DNA of 64,000 nt from Xestospongia bergquistia (lineage: Eukaryota > Porifera > Demospongiae > Haplosclerida > Petrosiidae), in assembly GCA_963965975.1 (NCBI GenBank), contig OZ014412.1, positions 5,830,501 through 5,894,500 on the forward strand, written 5' to 3'. A model generated the notes under the pieces. It made no database searches, was not told where the DNA came from, and saw only the letters and a program-made list of their open reading frames with translations. How positions within the stretch are numbered: position 1 is the stretch's first letter; each line of letters opens with the position of its first letter. The position numbers and the translations under genes are program-made. This document shows positions 2,896-55,021 of this stretch, piece after piece.

Positions 2896-5547
2896 CTTTG
2901 TTGTGACCTTCTATGGCATCAACTATCAACTCTGGTAATTCAATTCTCACTCCCAAGTCCTGAAATCTTTGTTGAACATCAGGAGATTTGAGGGATTCTA
3001 GCACATCATGGACAACAGAAGGTAGTACTGCATATTTTAGAACAACACCGTTCTTTTTTAATTCACAAAGTAAACATGATTCAAACCAGGAATATCCAAA
3101 AAAATAGTAGTAATTGAATCAAGAAAACCTTTTTGTAGCCAAAAGTCATCAAGACGAAACACAACATAAGGCAAACCAATAGGAGTTGCTGGTTTAAGAC
3201 TAGGATCTTGACGAAAGACAGACATTAGATCTTTGAATGTGGCTTTACTAATAAGTTGAACATACAGTTTCTCATACTCATCAAACTTGCGGATAATATT
3301 GTCATCTTTAATTAATTCCCCGATGCGTTTTAAAAGAATGTAATTAAGATAGCCAAAGAAATCATGCTCATACAGAAAAAAGAAATATTTATTGACATCA
3401 TCAATTCTACGAAGCTCATGTCGATATACCTCCACCCTACTTCCCCCTTGAATACGAATACTGAGCTTTAGTTCTTGATCAACAAACGTTTTCACTTTAT
3501 CCAAATTAACGTTCTTGATAACTGAGTCTTTCACTTCATTTGTTAACATATGAAATGTTTTTTGCAGTGTACAAGCTATTTTCTCTAATTCATCCACTTG
3601 ATTAATCCTTCTCAGTAAGTCAGTTAATATATCTGGACAAAACATGAATCACAGAAATGAAACAATTATTGTATATACCTTCATGGGCTAACTGTTGTTG
3701 AGCATCGATATCAGTTGAAATCACTAAAAAAATGATACCAAATGTATTAGTATGTTGTGTCAAAGAAAATCAAATTATATTGTATTGTGCTTATAATGCA
3801 CCAAATGAGAACAAGCAATCTGATTGCATGTCAACATGATACAAGGCAGTCATACATCTCAAAGTCTCACTAGGTATTCTGATAAAACTTATCACGAGAT
3901 TCATACTAGCCTGCCACTATCACTCCATAAAATAGCATGTGGCCCGGTACATTATTAAATATTTAAAATAAACAGAAAGACAATTCATAGAGAGTCAATT
4001 GAAGCATACACATTGTGGTTAGAGCCACTCCCTCTCAACATCTCATTAAACATTAATAGTATATATAAGTAATTATTTTTCACAGCTAGACACTAGACCC
4101 AATGCCATAAAATGTGATAACATAAAAGTATAATGTTTACCATATACAATATTGATTTTTGGCATAAATGACATTTTATGAAAACAAAGGTTGACCCCAA
4201 TCAGTGAACACTGTGCATAAGTATTTTAAGTTTATGGTCAGTTTAGGTCAGACTGTTCTTATATTTATACTATATTGTTTACTCTTGTGATAATAGCTAA
4301 CACTGTCATTGTATAGCAATATTTATTTTTTGGCCAAAAGAGCACACCATAGGAAGAATAAATATAATGTGACTTTTCAAATAAGACAACCAATGAATAT
4401 TATTCCTAATCACAAGTGCTATGATGATGGGTGTGACTGATCATGATTTGAAGGCTTGAAGCTTCTCAGTAGCTTCCTTCTTTACCTTAGTAACATTCTT
4501 TCCACAAACACTGTTGCCAATTCTCTAATCTCTATAGCTCTAGTCAGTGTTCTCTATGAAGTTAAGATCTTCCATTATAATTTCTGGGAGGAATGCTGGT
4601 CTAAACCATGATGCTTCAACCTCTCCTCTACTGTTTTCATCTTGGAAAATTTAAAAACCATTTTACGAAACAATGATTTATACTTAATTTTACTCAAAAA
4701 AACATTCTATCATAAATTATTCATATGCTATGAAGTATTGTTACAAAAATACCTGGTCCACAGTTAATATCAAGCTATTTTCAGTCACACCCAATGTATA
4801 ATGTCAAAACAAATTTTTTACTAGGACAATCAAGCTGTGTTTTCTTAGCTTGAAAGCTGAAGATCTTCCAGACTTACTAAAATTTATAGCATTAGGAGGC
4901 TACTTAAAATGTGCAGACCATTGATGTGGAATCCATTTTCTTTGAGAACGCTGGAGGGAGTGCATGGTTCTAAACCATTATAACTTTGACCCTTTCGAGC
5001 ATACTAACTTTGTCTCCTGGATGACAGTGAAATTTTAGGCTTTATTGCGTAATTATGCTACTAGTTATGATTAATAAATATAACTAGATCTGGAACTTGC
5101 CACTATCAGATACAAGTATGCATACCAAATGTCTTACCAGGATTACTTGGTCTTCTTTCAACATTAGATCTCTCATGGGTTTGTTGAGACGTATCTGTGG
5201 CTATCTGTATATAACAACGATATAAACACACTCTAGGATTACTTACTGACCTTTTGAGACAACAGTTATTGATATTTATCTGCAACAGCATTCTCTCCAA
5301 CATCTTTACTTCTTAAAGCTGTCAGCAGCTGTCTTCTTGTTGCATCAGGTCGAGTATGTAGCCATAACTGATACATTCGATCCCTTTTGTCAGCGTCTTT
5401 CCTAATCTCTTCTAATTCTACGCCATCTAGTAGTAACTGTATCCCCAGCTGGTACCAGTTAGTAACTCTAACATGTTCACACACTTCGTGGACTGGAGGC
5501 GCACTATCTAAGAGAGAATCCAGTGAATCTGGTAAGCTTACAGCCAT
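2896..5547 (-). pseudogene. Death-domain plus helical-domain gene, copy A, disabled
   Basis: The first coding exon (5547-5247) starts MAVSLPDSLDSLLDS and has a death-domain pattern: NWYQLGIQL, ELEEIRKDADKRDRMYQLWL, TRRQLLTALRS. A short linker exon follows near 5200-5140, then a large exon (3632-2896) of predicted helices with PIGLPYVVFRLDDFW. Death domains mediate homotypic adaptor contacts in apoptosis and innate signalling; I do not recognise the helical domain. Two lesions are visible: CAA to TAA near the end of the death domain (minus codon at 5268-5266, intact in copy B), and a one-base slip in a T7 run near 3098-3104 that breaks the frame of the last third. If the stop is read through or spliced out the product could survive, but decay is more likely. 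Confidence 0.6.
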
Positions 5548-8500: not shown

Positions 8501-8880
8501 TGTAACATAATAAAATTGTTTTGAGAATTTTAAGAGGAGTTGAGTGGTTATTGGTCTGACAGGAAATTAATACAGTTTTGTTACTATATTTATCTGGTCT
8601 GATCTAATTATGTGCTGTAGTATATCAGACCCTTCTTCCTTTTTAAATACTGAGTGTCTTGCTCGTTAGATTATGTTGGAATAAAATTAATACAAGTATA
8701 TTTTCTTAAAAATAAAAATAAAATTTAATGCAAAGGAACACAAACAAGATTAATAGATGTGTAGATCAATATTGTATAGGGACAAATATGGCAGCTCACT
8801 GACGCTGGTAATCACAAACTAGCCTTAATGATATTCATTGGCGACAAACAGCGCGCCCCACAAGAGCATGAAGACAAAAT
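5560..8880. repeat. AT-rich spacer duplicated at 18940-20640 and 12262-13200
   Basis: No convincing exon on either strand. The first part, upstream of the death-domain start, is well conserved in copy B and includes a small hairpin (TCAGGG..CCCCTGA near 5629). The remainder is AT-rich unique-looking DNA. From about 7925 on it is matched again at 12262 onward. Confidence 0.7.
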
Positions 8881-8890
8881 CTGCAGTACA

Positions 8891-8897
8891 TATAAAA
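8891..8897 (+). promoter_or_regulatory. TATA box of ncRNA copy 1
   Basis: TATAAAA located 30 to 24 bp before the conserved block, as in Pol III type-3 (U6/7SK/RNase P-like) promoters. It is kept in all three copies although neighbouring bases changed. No proximal sequence element could be verified. Confidence 0.5.
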
Positions 8898-8920: not shown

Positions 8921-9270
8921 GGTTGTGTTGTGGGCCAGCGTTCTGCAATGCATCAGACCTCTGAGATGGTTACCAGCATACTCTACGGAGTATCCGAAAG
9001 GCCGACTAGGATAGGGCTGGTAGTCTCCCTTTAAACGAGAAGAGGCTGGTGTATTTGTGGTTCCCGGTTCCTGAATGCGACATTCCCTAAGAGCTGGAAT
9101 CCCGTACGGCTGGTTTTAAGTTAGGGCGATGCTCCAGCCAGGATTACCTCGCGAAGACGAGGGTTACCAAGCCAGGTGGCGGTCCCAGCTAGCAATAGCA
9201 GGGAATCCTGGAGCCTAAGTGGAAGCCTGAGTGGGTGAGCGAGTAGGAATCGTTTGGGCAACACAACATG
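8921..9270 (+). ncRNA. Putative Pol III structured RNA, copy 1
   Basis: This is a 350-nt block clearly more GC-rich than its surroundings and base-for-base identical to 13235-13584 and 20924-21273, whereas the flanks differ. It has no long reading frame. Its ends are complementary (GTTGTGTTG with CAACACAAC). Internal hairpins include ATACTC-TACG-GAGTAT (UNCG loop), CC-GAAA-GG, CCTCG-cgaaga-CGAGG, and CCCaGCTA-GCAA-TAGCaGGG (GNRA loop), plus a long-range stem TTACCAGC/GCTGGTAG and another closed by GCTCCAG..AGGATT/AATCCTGGAGC. A TATA box lies at -30 and a T8 run follows at once, so it looks like an independent Pol III gene. I could not match it to RNase P, MRP, 7SK, SRP, U-snRNA or 5S. A structured non-autonomous repeat is the main alternative. 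Confidence 0.55.
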
Positions 9271-9278
9271 TTTTTTTT
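9271..9278 (+). terminator. Pol III-type T8 run, ncRNA copy 1
   Basis: Eight T residues directly after ACAACATG at the end of the conserved block. The run is ten T in the other two copies. Confidence 0.5.
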
Positions 9279-12244: not shown

Positions 12245-13204
12245 CTTACATAGCTTATATACTATATGTCTTGATTGAATACAGAGCTTGTAACTTTCTT
12301 ATTCACAGGTGTCCTGTTACAGTATTAGTAATATATCTTGAGGTTTGTTTATAAGGTATCCTAGTTATAGTAATCATAGTAAACCCTGAGTTGTGTTTAT
12401 GAGGTGTCATATTGGCTGTTATAATGTTAAAAGTGACTTGTCAATTTAATTAATAATAGAGACTGTCCCATAGATTTCCTATATGATAATAGTTTATGAT
12501 AAAGACCATATGAAAGTTGTGACAGCTGCAACCCTGCATGTACAATAACACATGTAAATATAATTATATAATGTCTGTATTAAGTTGAGTATATTATCTG
12601 TACAAAATATACACTACTTATCATGCACTGTTATCAATGTTAGGTAAACACTAGCTGGAATCTATAAAATTTATAGGGAAGACAAAATGTACTTTTTGAC
12701 CATCCTTCTCCATTGGGCTAAACCATTCTACAAGGTTCCTGGTTAAGCATCATTTGAGTGTCAGATTTGAAAATTTATGTTTTGTGTCTTCAATTGTACA
12801 CATGCAACAATAATTATAAACTTGTAACATAATATAATTGTTTTGAGAATTTTAAGAGTGGTGATTGGTCTGACAGGAAATTAATACAGTTTTGTTACTA
12901 TATTTATCTTGTCTGATCTAATTATGTGCTGTAGTATATCAGACCCTTCTTCCTTTTTTAAATACTGAGTGTCTTGCTCATTAGATTATGTTGGAATAAA
13001 TTCATACAAGTATATTTTCTTTAAAATAAAAATAAAATTTAATGCAAAGGAACATAAACAAGATTAATAGATGTGTAGATCAATATTGTATAGGGACAAA
13101 TACTGCAGCTCACTGACACTGGTAATCACAAACTAGTCTTAATAATATTCATAGGCGACAAACAACGTGCCCCACAAGAGCATGAAGACAAAATTTGCAG
13201 TACA

Positions 13205-13211
13205 TATAAAA
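13205..13211 (+). promoter_or_regulatory. TATA box of ncRNA copy 2
   Basis: TATAAAA 30 bp before the block. The surrounding 88 bp differ from copy 1 at five positions, but the TATA and its spacing are unchanged. Confidence 0.5.
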
Positions 13212-13234: not shown

Positions 13235-13584
13235 GGTTGTGTTGTGGGCCAGCGTTCTGCAATGCATCAGACCTCTGAGATGGTTACCAGCATACTCTAC
13301 GGAGTATCCGAAAGGCCGACTAGGATAGGGCTGGTAGTCTCCCTTTAAACGAGAAGAGGCTGGTGTATTTGTGGTTCCCGGTTCCTGAATGCGACATTCC
13401 CTAAGAGCTGGAATCCCGTACGGCTGGTTTTAAGTTAGGGCGATGCTCCAGCCAGGATTACCTCGCGAAGACGAGGGTTACCAAGCCAGGTGGCGGTCCC
13501 AGCTAGCAATAGCAGGGAATCCTGGAGCCTAAGTGGAAGCCTGAGTGGGTGAGCGAGTAGGAATCGTTTGGGCAACACAACATG
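13235..13584 (+). ncRNA. Putative Pol III structured RNA, copy 2
   Basis: Identical over all 350 positions to the blocks at 8921 and 20924, including complementary ends and the UACG and GCAA hairpins. It is followed by ten T residues. It sits 460 bp downstream (right edge to left edge) of the kinase copy B 3' end, on the opposite strand. Confidence 0.55.
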
Positions 13585-13594
13585 TTTTTTTTTT
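13585..13594 (+). terminator. Pol III-type T10 run, ncRNA copy 2
   Basis: Ten T residues directly after the block. Confidence 0.5.
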
Positions 13595-16117: not shown

Positions 16118-16490
16118 ACACTCATGCTCAGTTTGTGAAGGACTTCTATATATGCTTTTTTTATATGCTCAGACACAGGACATGGGTACTTCTTGTTCCA
16201 AAGAAGTACCCATGTATTCATGTATTGTAGTCTAGGGACAAGACTGTTATGGCACAGCACAGCACAAAACTGTATCATTTAAGGTACTTGTATCACAATG
16301 GATTACTTTAATGCTAATAAAAACATAGCTAAACCTTCCAAGCTCTTTTCCTAAAGACATAAGGCTAACTGAGAACATTATTAAATAGAGATGATGTATT
16401 TTAATAGCCACACCTCCAGATAAATGTGCACACATAGACAATGCTAGCTGAGCTAGGAAACTCTTTATTAGATCTAGTCTACTCCTAATT
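16118..16490. other. Replacement segment with hairpin, no gene seen
   Basis: Sequence unique to copy B where the transmembrane exon should be. It holds a strong hairpin, CATGGGTACTTCTT..AAGAAGTACCCATG around 16179-16215, and little else. Confidence 0.4.
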
Positions 16491-16520
16491 AATTATTACT
16501 TGTATAGCACATGTACTTAC

Positions 16521-17580
16521 TTTCATCCTTTCTTGGTCCAATATCATCATCAGGTAAGTGTACTAATGTCACTACTACACCAATATTCTCTAGCTCTTTT
16601 GATGCAACAGGATCTTCCAGGTCTTCAAGAACAGTAGGTAAAGCAGAAGGGAGAACGACATATTTAACAATGAGACACTCAGACGAGAATTCCTTAGGAG
16701 CAAGTGAACGAGCCCAATTAGGGAATTTGTCATACATGTACTCCTTCCAAGTAGACACAGGTCTTTCTGGCCAAGGGCTCTTTAGTTGAAACATCATTTC
16801 AGGAAGTCCAATCGCAGTAGTTGGAGAGAGATCTGGGTAAGTATGAAATACTTGCATTAGAAGATTGAAGGTTGATGTATTGAGAAGATACTCGTATATC
16901 CTTTCATATTGGTCAAACTGTTTTTTTACTTCAAGATTATCCTCTAGCTCACTGATCTCCTTCAATAAAACATAATTAGATATCCAACAAAGTGATTATC
17001 AATAAGAAAAGCAAACACTTCATGAACTGTATGTATAGAGCTTAGCTTTTGTTTGTAAAGTTCAATTGACTCAGAAATAGGACCAAGACATTCTACAACA
17101 TGTAAACGGATAAGTGATATCACCTTCGACAGGTGACATTCTTTAACTGACTCTTGTACATTCATAAGAAGTGAGCGAAACTCTTTTTTAGGTTGGAAGC
17201 AATGGTAACTAAATCTGGCACCTGCTCAATTTTCTCACAAAGAATATCTACAACTAATATAAGAAGAAAATTGTAAAGACATAATATTGAAATAATAGTT
17301 ATAATATTAATATTATTATGTTTATATTAAGACTGTATTTGACCAATCAGATAGTAAGGACACTTTCTTTATTGCTAGTAGCAAAAAAAATATTTGAAAA
17401 AAAACACTTGACTGCTACCATGGCAAGCCCGGGCCAAATGAAATATCAAATTGAATTGCAATTGGTTATAATGGTTGGTATAGCTACAAATAATGGAGGC
17501 CACTATTGAGTACTTAAAATAGATATAAAGACGTACTGAATTCATAAGAGACAGTCAATTGAAGCTTAGAATACTGAAGC

Positions 17581-20640: not shown

Positions 20641-20893
20641 ACAAATTTTATAACTGTATAATATATAGGAAGAGAAAATGTACTTTTTGACCATCCTTCT
20701 CCGTTGGGCTAAACCATTCTACAAGGCTCCTGGTTAAACACCGTTTGAGTGTCAGATTTGAAAATTTACGTTTCATGTCTTCATAGGAACACATGCAACA
20801 ATAATTATAAACTTGAAACATAATTAATTAACGATATTCATAGGCGACAAACAGCGCGCCCCACAAGAGCATGAAGACAAAATCTGCAGTACA

Positions 20894-20900
20894 TATAAAA
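20894..20900 (+). promoter_or_regulatory. TATA box of ncRNA copy 3
   Basis: TATAAAA 30 bp before the block, same spacing as the other copies. The duplicated region immediately upstream is shorter here: about 340 bp present in copies 1 and 2 are missing, yet the proximal 85 bp are kept. Confidence 0.5.
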
Positions 20901-20923: not shown

Positions 20924-21273
20924 GGTTGTGTTGTGGGCCAGCGTTCTGCAATGCATCAGACCTCTGAGATGGTTACCAGCATACTCTACGGAGTATCCGA
21001 AAGGCCGACTAGGATAGGGCTGGTAGTCTCCCTTTAAACGAGAAGAGGCTGGTGTATTTGTGGTTCCCGGTTCCTGAATGCGACATTCCCTAAGAGCTGG
21101 AATCCCGTACGGCTGGTTTTAAGTTAGGGCGATGCTCCAGCCAGGATTACCTCGCGAAGACGAGGGTTACCAAGCCAGGTGGCGGTCCCAGCTAGCAATA
21201 GCAGGGAATCCTGGAGCCTAAGTGGAAGCCTGAGTGGGTGAGCGAGTAGGAATCGTTTGGGCAACACAACATG
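20924..21273 (+). ncRNA. Putative Pol III structured RNA, copy 3
   Basis: Third identical 350-nt copy, followed by ten T residues. Because its upstream flank is reduced by deletion to roughly the proximal 100 bp shared by all copies, this copy best delimits the minimal conserved promoter region. Confidence 0.55.
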
Positions 21274-21283
21274 TTTTTTTTTT
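21274..21283 (+). terminator. Pol III-type T10 run, ncRNA copy 3
   Basis: Ten T residues directly after the block. Confidence 0.5.
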
Positions 21284-29611: not shown

Positions 29612-32600
29612 GTATATATAATATATGTATGCATACGAGTATGTGGCAATTATTACCTTATAAAATTGTGGTAAATTCATATTGGGGAAGAGTTTTTGTC
29701 TTAGAAGCAAGTATATTCTTTGTGTTAGTGATGAACAATACAGCAGATAATTGAAATGATGTGATTTAATTGTGTTGAATTTATATTGGGTTGAATTTTT
29801 GCCTGAGAAATAAGTGTAATTTAACATAGATCATGTAGCAGATTGAAAACGATGAGATTTGATAAGTAATACTATATAGAAAATTAACGCTCATGCTGCA
29901 ATTCCTACTTTGAACTTGTTTAAGATATTTTTAACACTCAGTTTCCCTACAATAAATGAATAATTAAAAACTTTATTTACTGGTATATATTATGCATTAA
30001 TATGAAATAAAATGACACTGTAACCATTCCTATTATCATCTTTTTAATAGACTGAGATATAGCGCACTCTACATTTCCTTTATAAGAATTTGAATTTATT
30101 CATGTAATAAATATATTAATTAGGTTTTTTTCTTAACTTCAGCTCATACGAATAGATTTAGTGGATTGGTTTCTTCCTATTTTTTGTCATAATTGAAACT
30201 ACAGTAAAATGTTAATTATCTTTTATTGTAGAGCCAAAAATTGACCTCAGCACATACAGCAGTGAGTTTTATCTGGGATTTTACGAACATGTATATAGAT
30301 CTAAAGAACGTGCATTGTATGTTCATACTATGAAAACAACTCCTGTTAATTTCAAAGTCACATCATCTGATTCCAACTTCTCTTATATGGGTACAACTAG
30401 TTATCACAACCCTCATAAAGTTTCTATACCAGCAAGTTATGAAGTGTTAGATCATACCTACTCTTGGAGGAAAAAGGGTCTTAAAGTTTCATCTCTAGAT
30501 ACAGAGCCTATATCAATTATTGCATGGAGCTACTGTACTGACTCAGATTTCATGTCTTATTTAGCTCTTCCATGTCATAAACAACCAACAACTCAATACA
30601 CATACTATGTTGTGTCTACATTAGGTTGGAGTGATCAGACAAGTCAGTTCATGATTATTGGTTGCCATAATAACAGTAATGTGACTATCATTCCAAACAA
30701 AGACGTTACTGTTCCATCAGATCCTCAGGACAGTGCTGCTGTTAATATGATTATGTCAGCCGGACATTCTTTTCATTTTGTCCTTCATTCACTTCAGACA
30801 TTCTTTGTTTCTAAACCTCATGTTGATCTTACTGGAACAAAAATTATATCTGATAGTCCACTCACAATTATTAGTGGACATGAAGCCGCCAGAGTTCCAG
30901 CTGGGACTAATGATGCTAATCCTATTGTTACACAACTGATACCAACAATAACATGGGGAAAAACATTTCTGTTATCACCATACATGGGTCGAAATAATGG
31001 ACAAAGTTACAAAGTGATTGCTACTAACAATAAAACAACTGCAATCAAAACCTGTGGTACAAATTACAATGTTGAACATATCAAAATTGATGAAAACAAT
31101 ACCAATTGGTTTTACACAACCAACAATGTATACTGTAGTATTATTTCTGATCGACCAATCTATGTTGCTCAAATTGGTGTTAGTACACAATATGATGGTG
31201 GTAACTATGGTGACCCTTCCCTTAACACAGTGCCACCAATAGAACAATATGAACACTCCATCCAGTTCTCTGCATTGCTATCAAGTGGTACTAGTTATTA
31301 CAGTGTGGTTGTACCAAATGATGCTTACTTTAACCAGAGTTTATTGATCAACAATATTCTTATCAATCCACCATGGGTTCTAATATATGCTTTTGATGGT
31401 TCAATCTATGGATATGGGTATTCAACATCTTTTAGTGGTATTAATACAATAGCCCATTCTAACCCAAATGGTAAAATATTTGTCTCTATCTATGGTTGGA
31501 GAAAATATGCAGGGTACAGTTATGTTGGAGGCATGAAGTTAAACCCAATTAACATTCCAGGAAGCAATGGTACATTGCAAAATTCAAGCTATGATGAAAA
31601 GCATTTACAAAATTTTGTACATATTTATTAACATAATGCAAATAAATTATTATTTAAATCTTATCAATTCAATTTCATTACATTTTCTTTAGATATTTGT
31701 TTGTTGTTACCAGTTAGTGGTCCATGTACTAACAATATCCTTCGATGGTATTATAGCTATGCTGTGGGTAGATGTCAGCAATTTACATATGGTGGTTGTG
31801 ATGGTAACCAAAACAACTTTGAAACTTTATATAACTGTCTACATCAATGTGGTAAGTGTTTAAAACTTGTCAGAATTGATTGGAAACAGAAATCATTTCA
31901 TCAAAAATATTTAAACATTATTTTAATTAAATACTTTTATTACAACAGGTGTAAAGTGCAAGAATAATGTTCAATTGGTACAATGTCTAGATAATCCATG
32001 TGACACTGCACAATGTCCAAACATACCTGATGCTATATGTGTACCATCAAGTTGTGGTCAATGTTCAGCTCATTTCTTTAACACCTTTGGTCACAATGTC
32101 ACAAGCAGTTGCAGTATGTATTAATAATTTAAAATAACAGTTCTTTAATTATAATAAAATTGTGTCATACTGACTAATATATCCTACCTACAGTACCTAA
32201 TAATCCTTATTACTAATTTCCATATTTAAACAGGATACTATACTGTAAAAGATGATGTATACAAACCATGTAGATCTACATGTGTACATATTATGTTTTA
32301 TAATATAGCCACACCCAAATATCTGAACATAAGATTTATGTTTGAAAGTTATGTTTTACTATAATTATTGTGATCACATCCTTAAACAAAATCTAACTTT
32401 CTTTTTAGCTGAATACCCTTTTACAATATCCTTCTTATAGGACTGTTTGCCTTAAAGTTTTTCTTGCAACTATTCCAGCAAATAAGTATTATGATGTTGA
32501 TATGATGACTGTATTGAAAGAATGTTGATACTGTATTTCTACTTTAGACTTGTTTTAGATATTTCATTACCTGAAATCTCTAAATTTAATGACTTCCTAA

Positions 32601-35600
32601 ATTTATTTACTAGTTTAAATTGATGATACTGTAACATTTCCTAACATATCTTATATTGTGCTCTTTATTTGACCTAGATATAGCAATGCATTTTTTTTAT
32701 TTACATTTAATATTTTTTATACTTAGTTACAATCTCGGTTAGGTATTTCTTAAGTTCAACTCATCAATATTGATTTTAATAATTATCTTTTTCTTATATA
32801 TATATGTAATATTTTGTTTTCATTATAGAGCCAAAAATTGACCATAGCACATATAGCAGTGAGTTTTATTTGGGATTCTATGAAAATGTACATGGATCTA
32901 AAGAATGTGTATTGTATGTTCGTACAATGGAAATGACTCCTGTTGTTTTCAAAGTCACATCACTTGATGGTAGCTTCTCATATATGGGTACAACTAGTTA
33001 TCACAACCCTCATAAAGTCTCTGTACCAACAACCTATGAAGTATTAGATAATACTTATTCCATGAGGAGAAAGGGTCTGAAAGTTTACTCTCTATACTCA
33101 GACCCAATATCAGTTATTGCATGGAGCAGCCATAATAACTATGCCTTCATGTCTTATTTAGCTCTTCCATGTCATAAACAACCAACGACTCAATACACAT
33201 ACTATATTGTGTCTACATTAGGTTGGAGTGATCAGACAAGTCAGTTCATGATTATTGGCTGTCTTAATAACAGTAAAGTGACTATCATTCCAAACAATGA
33301 TATTACTGTTCCATCAGATCCTCAGGACAGTACTGCTGTTAATATAATTGTTTCAGCTGGACATTCTTTTGACTTTGTTCTTCATTCACTTCAGACGTTC
33401 TTTGTTTTTAAACCTTATGTTGATCTTACCGGAACTAAAATTACATCTGACAGTCCACTCACAATTATCAGTGGACATGAAGCTGCCCGAGTTCCAGCTG
33501 GGACTATTGATGCTGACCCTATTGTTACACAACTGATACCAACAATAACATGGGGAAAGACATTTTTGTTAACACCACACATGGGTCGTATCAATGGACA
33601 AAGTTACAAAGTGATTGCTACTAAAAATATGACAAATGCAGTTAAAACTTGTGGTACAAATTACAATACTGAACTTATCAAATTTGATGAAAATAACACC
33701 AATTGGTTTTACACAACCAACAATGTATACTGTAGTATTATCTCTGATCAACCAATCTATGTTGCTCAAATTGGTGTTAGTACATGGTATGATGGTGGCA
33801 ACTATGGTGACCCTTCCCTTAACACAATACCATCAATAGAACAATATGAACACTCCATCCAGTTCTCTGCATTGCTGTCAACTGGTACTAGTTATTACAG
33901 TGTAGTTGTACCAAATGATGCTTACTTTAACCAGAGTTTATTGATCAATAATGTTCTTATCAATCCACCATGGGTTCTAATATATGCTTTTGATGGTTCT
34001 ATCTATGGATATGGCTATTCAACATCTTTTAGTGGTACTAATACAATAGCACATCCTAACTCAAATGGTAAATTGTTTGTCTCTATCTATGGTTGGAGAA
34101 ACTATGCAGGGCACAGTTATGTTGGAGGCATGAAGTTAAACCCAATTAACATTCCAGGAAGCTATGGTAATTATTTTACATTGTAATCTATGATAGACGA
34201 GCTCGCAAAATTGTTTAATAGCATTGATAATTGGTTTGAGTTTCTCCATTCAATTTTACTGCATTTCTTTAGATATTTGTTTGTTGTTACCAGTTAGTGG
34301 TCCATGTACTAACAATATCATTCGATGGTATTATAACTTTGCTGTAGAAAGATGTCAGCAATTTACATATGGTGGTTGTGATGGTAATCAAAACAACTTT
34401 GAAACTTTATATAACTGTGTACAACAATGTAGTAAGTGTTTTAAACTTGTTAGAATTGATTGAAAATAGAAATCATTTCATCAAAAATATTTAAACATTA
34501 TTTTAATTAAATACTTTTATTACAACAGGTGTAAAGTGCAAGAATAATGTTCAATTGGTACAATGTCTAGATAATCCATGTGACACTGCACAATGTCCAA
34601 ACATACCTGATGCTATATGTGTACCATCAAGTTGTGGTCAATGTTCAGCTCATTTCTTTAACACCTTTGGTCACAATGTCACAAGCAGTTGCAGTATGTA
34701 TTAATAATTTAAAATAACAGTTCTTTAATTATAATAAAATTGTGTCATACTGACTAATATATCCTACCTACAGTACCTAATAATCCTTATTACTAATTTC
34801 CATATTTAAACAGGATACTATACTGTAAAAGATGATGTATACAAACCATGTAGATCTACATGTGTACATATTATGTTTTATAATATAGCCACACCCAAAT
34901 ATCTGAACATAAGATTTATGTTTGAAAGTTATGTTTTACTATAATTATTGTGATCACATCCTTAAACAAAATCTAACTTTCTTTTTAGCTGAATACCCTT
35001 TTACAATATCCTTCTTATAGGACTGTTTGCCTTAAAGTTTTTCTTGCAACTATTCCAGCAAATAAGTATTATGATGTTGATATGATGACTGTATTGAAGA
35101 ATGTTGATACTGTATTTCTACTTTAGACTTGATTTAGATATTTCATTACCTGAAATCTCTAAGTTTAATGACTTCCTAAATTTATTTACTAGTTTAAATT
35201 GATGATACTGTAACATTTCCTAACATATCTTATATTGTGCTCTTTATTTGACCTAGATATAGCAATGCATTTTTTTTATTTACATTTAGTATTTTTTATA
35301 CTTAGTTACAATCTCGGTTAGGTATTTCTTAAGTTCAACTCATCAGTATTGATTTTAATAATTATCTTTTTCTTATATATATATATGTAATATTTTGTTT
35401 TCATTATAGAGCCAAAAATTGACCTCACCACATATAGCAGTGAGTTTTATCTGGGATTCAATGAACATGTACATGGATCTAATGTACATATATTGTATGT
35501 CCATACTATGGAATTGACTCCTATTACTTTCAAAGTCACATCACTTGATGACAACTTCTCATATATGGGTACAACTAGTTATCACAACCCTCATAAAGTT

Positions 35601-53247: not shown

Positions 53248-55021
53248 TTACACACGTTTTTGTTGTTGTTGTTTTTGTTGTTGTTGTTGTTGTTGTTGTA
53301 TGCTTTGTCTTTGTTGCTGTAGTTCATACATTTGCATCATTTGTACTGTTTGTTGCGTTTTTAACAAACGCTTGATTTTTCTGAGTTCTCGTTGCTCTGG
53401 AGTTTCTGAAAAGTATATCATACAAACACACGGACATGTTAAACAGTCAATACAAAAGTTGCCTGGATCATTGCAGGAACAATCATTTTGGTAACAAGCA
53501 TAACAGCACGCTCCTCCATAACAACAACAGCAATACAAAATAAATGCAGTAACACAGAAAGTGATAACGACCCAGTTTTCAATTATATAATCTATCCATG
53601 AAATATTTGTATCAGCTGTGACAAGAGAAATAGTGAACACTGACATGATTGTTATATATATATTTTACTCACCACTACATGTACTAACTGTAGTAGTAGG
53701 TTTGGAGCGACTAGAGACTGATATAAAAGAGAGAATAGATTATATATACGTGACCTGATTTGCAAAAAAAGACCACTTTTGTCAAAACAGTTGTGTCTTG
53801 ATTTATAAAAACACTGTTAAAATGTTACATCAAAAAAACAGTTTTGATTACATATAGAATAGGTATGCATATATGCTAACTGTATGCAAACAAAACTGAG
53901 AAGTTTGAGATGTTTTAACTAACAGTGGTTTGCTCATAAATCAGGTCACAATTGTTTTGAGAGAAGTGGTCCTTTTTTGCAAATCAGGTCACATATATAT
54001 GAGCTAAAAATAATTATTAAATTACACATACTGTATAGACACTCTAAAGTAACATCATCATTATGTGTACAGACACTACTGGCATATGAAGTCGATGGAC
54101 ATGAATTGCTTGAGGAGTAACAAATGTCAGATGAAGTGCTATGCATTGTAGTAGTCCATATTGGTTGACTTGTAGCACCAGATCTATATGAAGTGTATGA
54201 GTTGTGTTACTTAACGTTAAGTATACCCTACAGATTAAGATGATTGTAGTCATTGTAGTCATTGTATCCTAGTTGTTTGCATATTACTCCAGCATCAGTG
54301 CTATCAAACTGATCATCACACATAGTTCCCCATTGTCCATTACAATAGACCTCCACACGACCTTCATTAGAATAACTTCCTCCTTGAAGACGTATCATAC
54401 CAGGGTAAGGATTGTTGTTCCAGATCCTAGTAACGTCTGCAAGAATTTAGATAAAATATGCTGCATGCTTTTATGATGAATGTGACTCACAGCAATACAC
54501 AGTAGCATCATATGAGTTGGTGCATTCTCTAATACGTATACTAGTAGAGAAGGAACATTGAAAGATTGTCAGATACTCACTACTATCACAGGAGACATCA
54601 CTTAGAAATGTTTGACTGTAATCAGTACCATAACTGCTTATATATTTAAAAATTAGCCATTTTTGTTTTACTAACCTCACCAATCCTGCTCTAGAGTAAC
54701 TCGAGGCTCCTGTATATCCTAACTGATGACAAATGACATCAGCTTCATTTTGACTGTAGCTGTCGTCGTCACAGATGTTGGTGGCGGTCACATCATTATT
54801 GTCATAGACCCTTACAATTCCATAGTTGTAGGAGTTTGAAGTGATTCCATTACGAAAGAGTATTATAGAACTTGCTAGATATAAAAATGAACGAGAAAGT
54901 AAAGTAATAATAATTATGTTTAATTTGCTTAGTAGATATTGTAGTGAGGCGACTTACAGTGAACATAAGAAACAAAACAAGTCAGAGCACTCAAAAAGAA
55001 CAAAAAGCTATTCAGAGTCAT
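53248..55021 (-). CDS. Two-SRCR single-pass membrane protein with Q-rich tail
   Basis: Complete seven-exon gene: 55021-54958 (signal peptide [17 protein letters not shown]), 54874-54676 and 54636-54491 (SRCR 1: [37 protein letters not shown]), 54436-54232 and 54183-54032 (SRCR 2: [38 protein letters not shown]), 53717-53673 (Ser/Thr stalk) and 53615-53248. The lengths add to 1179 nt, 392 residues plus stop, with matching phases. The last exon has a membrane segment ([14 protein letters not shown]) followed by a dense cysteine cluster ([29 protein letters not shown]), a basic helix and a glutamine-rich end. It is a scavenger-receptor-like cell-surface protein, possibly palmitoylated at the cysteines. 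Ligand unknown. Confidence 0.85.
53254..53300 (-). repeat. Trinucleotide (CAA/CAG-type) tract coding poly-Q
   Basis: GTTGTT repeats on the plus strand encode the glutamine run at the C-terminus of the SRCR protein. Length polymorphism is likely. Confidence 0.8.
53750..53992. mobile_element. TIR element, GTGACCTGATTTGCAAAAA family
   Basis: Inverted ends GTGACCTGATTTGCAAAAAA..TTTTTTGCAAATCAGGTCAC with paired GACCAC/GTGGTC next inside. It lies in the intron between SRCR 2 and the stalk exon and is non-coding. Target duplication unclear because flanks are TA-rich. An internal partial end (aaatcaggtcacaattg, near 53938) suggests nesting. Confidence 0.8.

Follow-up and report, generated by a model that had tools for sequence, protein, structure and literature searches.

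Candidate family of high-copy snRNA-type Pol III genes for an uncatalogued RNA of about 350 nt in a sponge genome

Three identical blocks in the window

The window, the whole stretch of 64,000 nucleotides that was analysed, carries three copies of a 350 bp block on the forward strand, at positions 8921–9270, 13235–13584 and 20924–21273. A first reading of the letters alone (hereafter the sequence-only reading) had called these blocks identical, and direct comparison of the window copies confirmed that they are the same at all 350 bp. The 88 bp immediately upstream show five differences between copies 1 and 2, as had also been stated, one between copies 1 and 3 and four between copies 2 and 3. 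The GC-content of the block, described earlier as GC-rich, is 53.7% vs. 31.9% for the whole window. The reported TATAAAA at position −30 was found in all three copies, as were the T-runs at the block ends (8, 10 and 10 residues after copies 1, 2 and 3, respectively). The complementary termini GTTGTGTTG and CAACACAAC can be seen in the letters as well as in the predicted fold, and so can the UACG, GAAA and GCAA loops. The features are as follows, with negative positions counted from the first base of the block.

8828–8838, forward strand: DSE-like element ATGATATTCAT of copy 1, at −93; the same or nearly the same element precedes two U6 genes, the RNase P gene and two U2 genes
8856–8864, forward strand: PSE-like element CCCCACAAG of copy 1, at −65; of the YCCC..AA type found 34–35 bp before TATAAAA in two U6 genes and the RNase P gene
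8891–8897, forward strand: TATAAAA of copy 1, at −30
8921–9270, forward strand: putative transcribed part of copy 1, type A, 350 nt, with presumed start and end
8922–8930, forward strand: 5′ arm of the predicted terminal stem, GTTGTGTTG, copy 1; one pair changes from U-A to G-C between types A and B
8978–8993, forward strand: predicted hairpin ATACTC-TACG-GAGTAT, copy 1
9147–9162, forward strand: predicted hairpin CCTCG-CGAAGA-CGAGG, copy 1; loop letters and length differ among copies
9259–9267, forward strand: 3′ arm of the predicted terminal stem, CAACACAAC, copy 1
9271–9278, forward strand: T8 run of copy 1, presumed Pol III terminator; T4 or longer in 80 of 81 copies
13170–13178, forward strand: PSE-like element of copy 2, by pattern match
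13205–13211, forward strand: TATAAAA of copy 2, at −30
13235–13584, forward strand: putative transcribed part of copy 2, same as copy 1
13585–13594, forward strand: T10 run of copy 2
20859–20867, forward strand: PSE-like element of copy 3, by pattern match
20894–20900, forward strand: TATAAAA of copy 3, at −30
20924–21273, forward strand: putative transcribed part of copy 3, same as copy 1
21274–21283, forward strand: T10 run of copy 3

Promoter and terminator

The sequences upstream of the two forms of the block, types A and B (described below), were compared with those of two U6 genes, one RNase P gene, two U2 genes and the MRP gene of the same genome. The PSE-like element precedes TATAAAA by 35 bp in types A and B, by 34 and 35 bp in the two U6 genes and by 35 bp in the RNase P gene. 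The DSE-like element TGA(T/A)ATTCA precedes type A, both U6 genes and the RNase P gene, and occurs in a shortened form before both U2 genes; type B (locus L095) carries a one-base variant missed by the strict pattern. A PSE-like element was found in one U2 gene only, 29 bp before TATTTAA, and the pattern had no match in the U2 gene on contig C7. Upstream of MRP, neither the DSE nor the PSE pattern matched. Since the U2 genes, presumably transcribed by Pol II, and the MRP gene have TATA-like stretches as well (at −31; TATTTAA and TATATAA in the U2 genes), the TATA box alone is not a clear guide to the polymerase.

The family thus resembles the U6 and RNase P genes of its own genome in the DSE-like and PSE-like elements, in TATAAAA and in the 34–35 bp PSE–TATA spacing, and resembles U6 also in the T-run after the gene, which supports the type 3 Pol III promoter proposed in the sequence-only reading. 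The RNA itself is unrelated in sequence to U6 and RNase P RNA. A combined PSE-plus-TATA pattern, drawn up after inspection of the U6 and RNase P promoters, occurs in the window only before the three blocks (three forward matches, none in reverse); the mean chance rate in 200 mononucleotide-shuffled windows was 0.05 per strand. Among the 81 copies read genome-wide, PSE-like elements were found in all 81 by a relaxed pattern, TATA-like stretches in 80 and runs of four or more T in 80; the strict DSE pattern matched in 66 copies and was absent from 15. A regular-expression scan of the block revealed neither an A box nor a B box, which leaves the upstream promoter as the only one that can be recognised. 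The internal A and B boxes expected of a SINE or of a tRNA- or 7SL-derived retroposon were thus not found.

Comparison with known RNAs and coding sequences

The covariance search proposed as a check in the sequence-only reading, which had recognised no known RNA motif, bore that reading out: no Rfam family was found in the window at the gathering score, and raising the E-value to 10 added a single chance-level SNORA38 match. Among the best candidates scored, the SRP (1), U6 (2), U2 (12 over the cut-off, of 13), RNase P (4 over the cut-off, of 5) and MRP (1) genes of the genome all lie elsewhere. SRP, RNase P, MRP, U6 and U2 RNAs were therefore rejected as identities of the block, which has no covariance match and whose genome has its own genes for them at other places. 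The 7SK covariance model had no match in the window. The GAUC motif belongs to the 7SK 5′ hairpin, and GATC is absent from the block.

Telomerase RNA was also rejected. Its template is described as 1.5–2 telomere repeats (PMC8480181), more than the single CCCTAA and single TTAGGG of the block, with the reservation that the host telomere repeat may differ. A coding sequence was rejected as well, since the longest stretch free of stops spans 65 residues in the reverse direction and 37 in the forward one. The block had no match in the non-eukaryote collections searched (phages, viral contigs and prokaryote genomes), and no such RNA family is described in the titles and abstracts searched, largely from outside subscription journals.

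Copy number and genomic distribution

A DNA search of the genome (146,460,797 bases, 21 contigs) with the block, in which the best 40 of 413 candidates were scored, gave at least 45 matches, 40 of them full-length and 5 fragments. Among the full-length matches listed (n = 40), 33 were exact, 6 had one mismatch and 1 extended over 349 positions. An internal 31-base word of the block occurs at 336 genome sites (≤3 mismatches), the type A promoter-to-RNA junction at 150 (≤3 mismatches) and the type B 5′ end at 510 (≤2 mismatches), with 0 sites for each control; these counts overlap, take in truncated copies and are not counts of complete genes. The family comprises at least 80 copies with an aligned length of 300 positions or more, most but not all of them complete; this floor consists of 40 copies from the genome search and 40 further places read. 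The three blocks of the window thus appear to belong to a gene family that has hundreds of related sites genome-wide, far more than U6 (2 matches) or RNase P (4 over the cut-off).

Some copies are held in tandem units of about 4.3 kb (contig C1, positions 5717982, 5722297 and 5726612). Type B is distributed unevenly. Of its 510 sites, 100 were listed, and 77 of these lie on contigs C3, C5, C6 and C7; by a hand count of the listed places, 75 of the 77 are no more than 1 Mb from a contig end. Most of the 9 listed on C1 and C2 are internal. Of the listed type B 5′ ends, 26 fall in the first 18.2 kb of C6 (1–18216), on one strand and spaced at multiples of about 340 bp. A similar one-strand series, with type B 5′ ends every ~340 bp, was observed at C5:35405–39169, likewise at a contig end.

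In the first 140 bp of C6, the part of the array that was read, a promoter precedes the RNA start. On this ground, and because a search for RNA 3′ ends lying 25 bp or less from a 5′ start found 0 sites, the idea of chromosome ends made of head-to-tail RNA copies was dropped. The C6 units are shorter than the promoter plus the RNA and so are probably truncated genes; judged by its sequence, the contig-end array probably consists of subtelomeric, truncated, promoter-bearing type B units.

Incomplete 3′ pieces were also found near intact copies, with identities of 98–99% for the 131 bp pieces and of 83% and 73–78% for others. At loci L019 (1489–1875) and L021 (1997–2127 and 3410–3795), partial copies adjoin intact genes; they correspond to positions 220–350 (one to 242–350), are 98–100% identical and have neighbours about 256 bp apart. 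At loci L027–L031 and L034–L038, near 2090–2220, there are decayed 3′ pieces with 73–75% identity to positions 186–300, located in the C1 clusters about 250 bp downstream of intact copies.

Two end types and sequence divergence

The 81 copies read fall into 72 of type A and 9 of type B. This set leaves aside L005 (the same place as L009), L039–L041 (other RNAs) and L042–L061 except L059; the latter loci overlap others or were fetched for fragments, and full copies within them were not added. The two types have a common interior but not the same terminal bases at either end. At pair 3–346 of the predicted terminal stem, type A has U-A where 8 of the 9 type B copies have G-C, a double change that retains the pair; position 2–347 is paired in type A and unpaired in type B. 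One type B copy, locus L100, combines a type B 5′ end with a type A 3′ end and has one mismatch in the terminal stem.

In pairwise comparisons of 17 copies with identical bodies (pairs under 25% difference counted), the core promoter differs by 4.8%, the distal promoter by 7.9% and the downstream flank by 10.4%, vs. 0 differences in 47600 body positions. In a sample of 40 copies on C1–C3, drawn by an exact internal 31-mer and compared within type, the differences amount to 1741/183188 (0.95%) in the body, 1649/31359 (5.3%) in the core promoter and 4202/24855 (16.9%) in the distal promoter. Both sets understate body divergence, because they were picked by body identity or by an exact 31-mer and lean to intact copies. 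Constraint on the transcribed part is the simplest account of the contrast between body and flanks.

Some variants are common to both types. Of the type A copies, 15 of 72 carry the substitution A121T and 2 of 72 a linked loop change of 6 bases in columns 232–237; among type B copies these variants are found in 5 of 9 and 4 of 9, respectively. The loop change is too complex to have easily arisen twice, which suggests that sequence has passed between copies with different ends. Among 23 informative columns, 125 column pairs show all four combinations, many of these being linked end columns counted repeatedly. Such mosaics suggest gene conversion among the copies. The sequence-only reading had attributed the identity of the blocks to selection or gene conversion; with the near-identity limited to the transcribed part and the mosaics found in both types, selection plus gene conversion is the most likely cause.

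Predicted RNA fold

The predicted fold of the block has a free energy of −129.7 kcal/mol (z = −2.07), and 1 of 100 shuffles folded as well, so the fold appears only moderately better than shuffles. When 45 distinct substitutions were placed on it, 15 kept a pair, 16 broke one in at least one copy and 14 fell on unpaired positions; the null expectation was 13.3, 18.2 and 13.5, respectively (P = 0.25), so the variation does not support the fold as a whole. The claim of a strong RNA structure therefore fared poorly, with the z-score and the substitution test lending it little or no weight.

Possible nature of the family

The best reading of these data, and a probable one, is that the blocks belong to an undescribed high-copy family of snRNA-type Pol III genes under concerted evolution, encoding an uncatalogued RNA of about 350 nt. 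SNAPc is described as binding PSEs and, together with a TATA box, TBP and BRF2 as recruiting Pol III (PMC6004067). By this analogy, the external type 3 promoter ahead of the block (DSE-like element, PSE-like element and TATAAAA at about −30) would recruit Pol III through SNAPc and TFIIIB/BRF2, and the transcript would start near 8921 and stop in the T-run. The product would be a non-coding RNA of ~350 nt whose complementary ends may close into a stem that could protect it; as a guess from size and class, it may serve as an RNP scaffold. Purifying selection and gene conversion would preserve near-uniformity in the transcribed part, with promoters and flanks left to drift. It is by such reasoning that we infer the "new structured RNA gene" of the sequence-only reading. 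Counting against the best reading are the lack of the strict DSE in 15 of 81 copies and the MRP gene with neither a DSE nor a PSE match, as far as these patterns can tell, the modest fold statistics (z = −2.07, P = 0.25) and the hundreds of dispersed and subtelomeric copies, which also fit a selfish repeat.

Such a selfish repeat, the main rival, would be a mobile or amplifying cassette with a snRNA-type Pol III promoter and a terminator, its uniformity due to recent spread and homogenisation and not to host function; we consider it rather unlikely. The 336, 150 and 510 sites of the three family words agree with it, as do the tandem arrays at contig ends and the truncated tandem 3′ pieces. Pairwise homology stops near −96 to −120 in 235 of 650 directed pairs and within 40 bp of the 3′ end in 203 of 650; further peaks lie near −260 and +140, and all these peaks may mark the ends of an element. 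However, nothing beyond promoter, RNA and terminator is included in the shortest common unit, and the remaining ends are scattered, as for a gene duplicated with varying flanks. The climb in divergence from body to core to distal promoter fits constraint and not one recent insertion burst, and the block is without the A or B box of known SINEs. Many dispersed copies had been named in the sequence-only reading as a sign of a transposable element; the sites do number in the hundreds, but promoter, RNA and terminator are kept as a unit. Much less probable is a strongly diverged known Pol III RNA, most likely 7SK, beyond the reach of covariance models. The length, the snRNA-type promoter, the paired ends and the T-run fit that class, and the primary sequence of 7SK is reported to vary in protostomes (PMC8406779); on the other side stand the Rfam result, with no family at gathering score and only a meaningless SNORA38 match up to E = 10, the lack of GATC in the block and the location of the SRP, RNase P, MRP, U6 and U2 genes elsewhere in the genome. 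Finally, functionless recent duplicates or assembly-collapsed DNA, in which identity would reflect age only, are very improbable. Some copies do lie in ~4.3 kb tandem units, but identical copies have diverged in their adjacent flanks (10.4% downstream, 4.8–7.9% upstream) with 0/47600 differences in the body, which makes this reading hard to hold.

Within the preferred reading of a Pol III gene family, a more specific proposal is put forward tentatively: the family may represent an undescribed class of abundant animal nuclear RNA, with hundreds of U6-like Pol III genes, gene conversion across the genome, and type B genes concentrated near chromosome ends and partly amplified there into promoter-bearing tandem arrays. 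Among known systems, 7SK resembles the family in size class and promoter type; the family differs from it in its hundreds of copies, in having no GATC in the block and in matching no Rfam model. The rodent 4.5SH and 4.5SI RNAs, like the presumed transcripts here, are Pol III RNAs of narrow, taxon-restricted distribution. They are described as about 100 nt long, with A and B boxes and an origin from 7SL and tRNA (PMC10137851); the family, in contrast, is 350 nt long, lacks both boxes and has an external promoter. Complementary ends are reported to stabilise 4.5SI RNA and prolong its life (PMC3440375), and it is plausible that the terminal stem may act on the family RNA in the same way. SINEs are similarly dispersed, of high copy number and transcribed by Pol III, as the family is presumed to be. 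They are stated to follow an internal-promoter rule (PMC7279448), whereas here the block is without an internal A or B box and the upstream promoter travels with the copies.

If transcribed, the family would contribute an abundant RNA to the few RNAs of the snRNA-type Pol III class (U6, 7SK, RNase P and MRP). Genes of this class are uncommonly amplified to hundreds of sites with homogenisation between chromosomes, so the family would be unusual in this respect, and it would provide a natural system for the concerted evolution of dispersed RNA genes. The promoter elements in common with U6 and RNase P define a snRNA promoter code for this genome.

Other open reading frames in the window

Two long ORFs near the RNA genes, at 3058–3648 and 16489–16995 (both on the reverse strand), gave no Pfam match at E = 0.001. 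A long ORF at 30216–31631, the only one of its run that was scanned, encodes an IgGFc_binding domain (PF17517, E = 1.7 × 10−43), and the long ORFs at 32810, 35391 and 48804 resemble it. An SRCR domain (PF00530, E = 3.8 × 10−11) is encoded on the reverse strand at 54471–54953.
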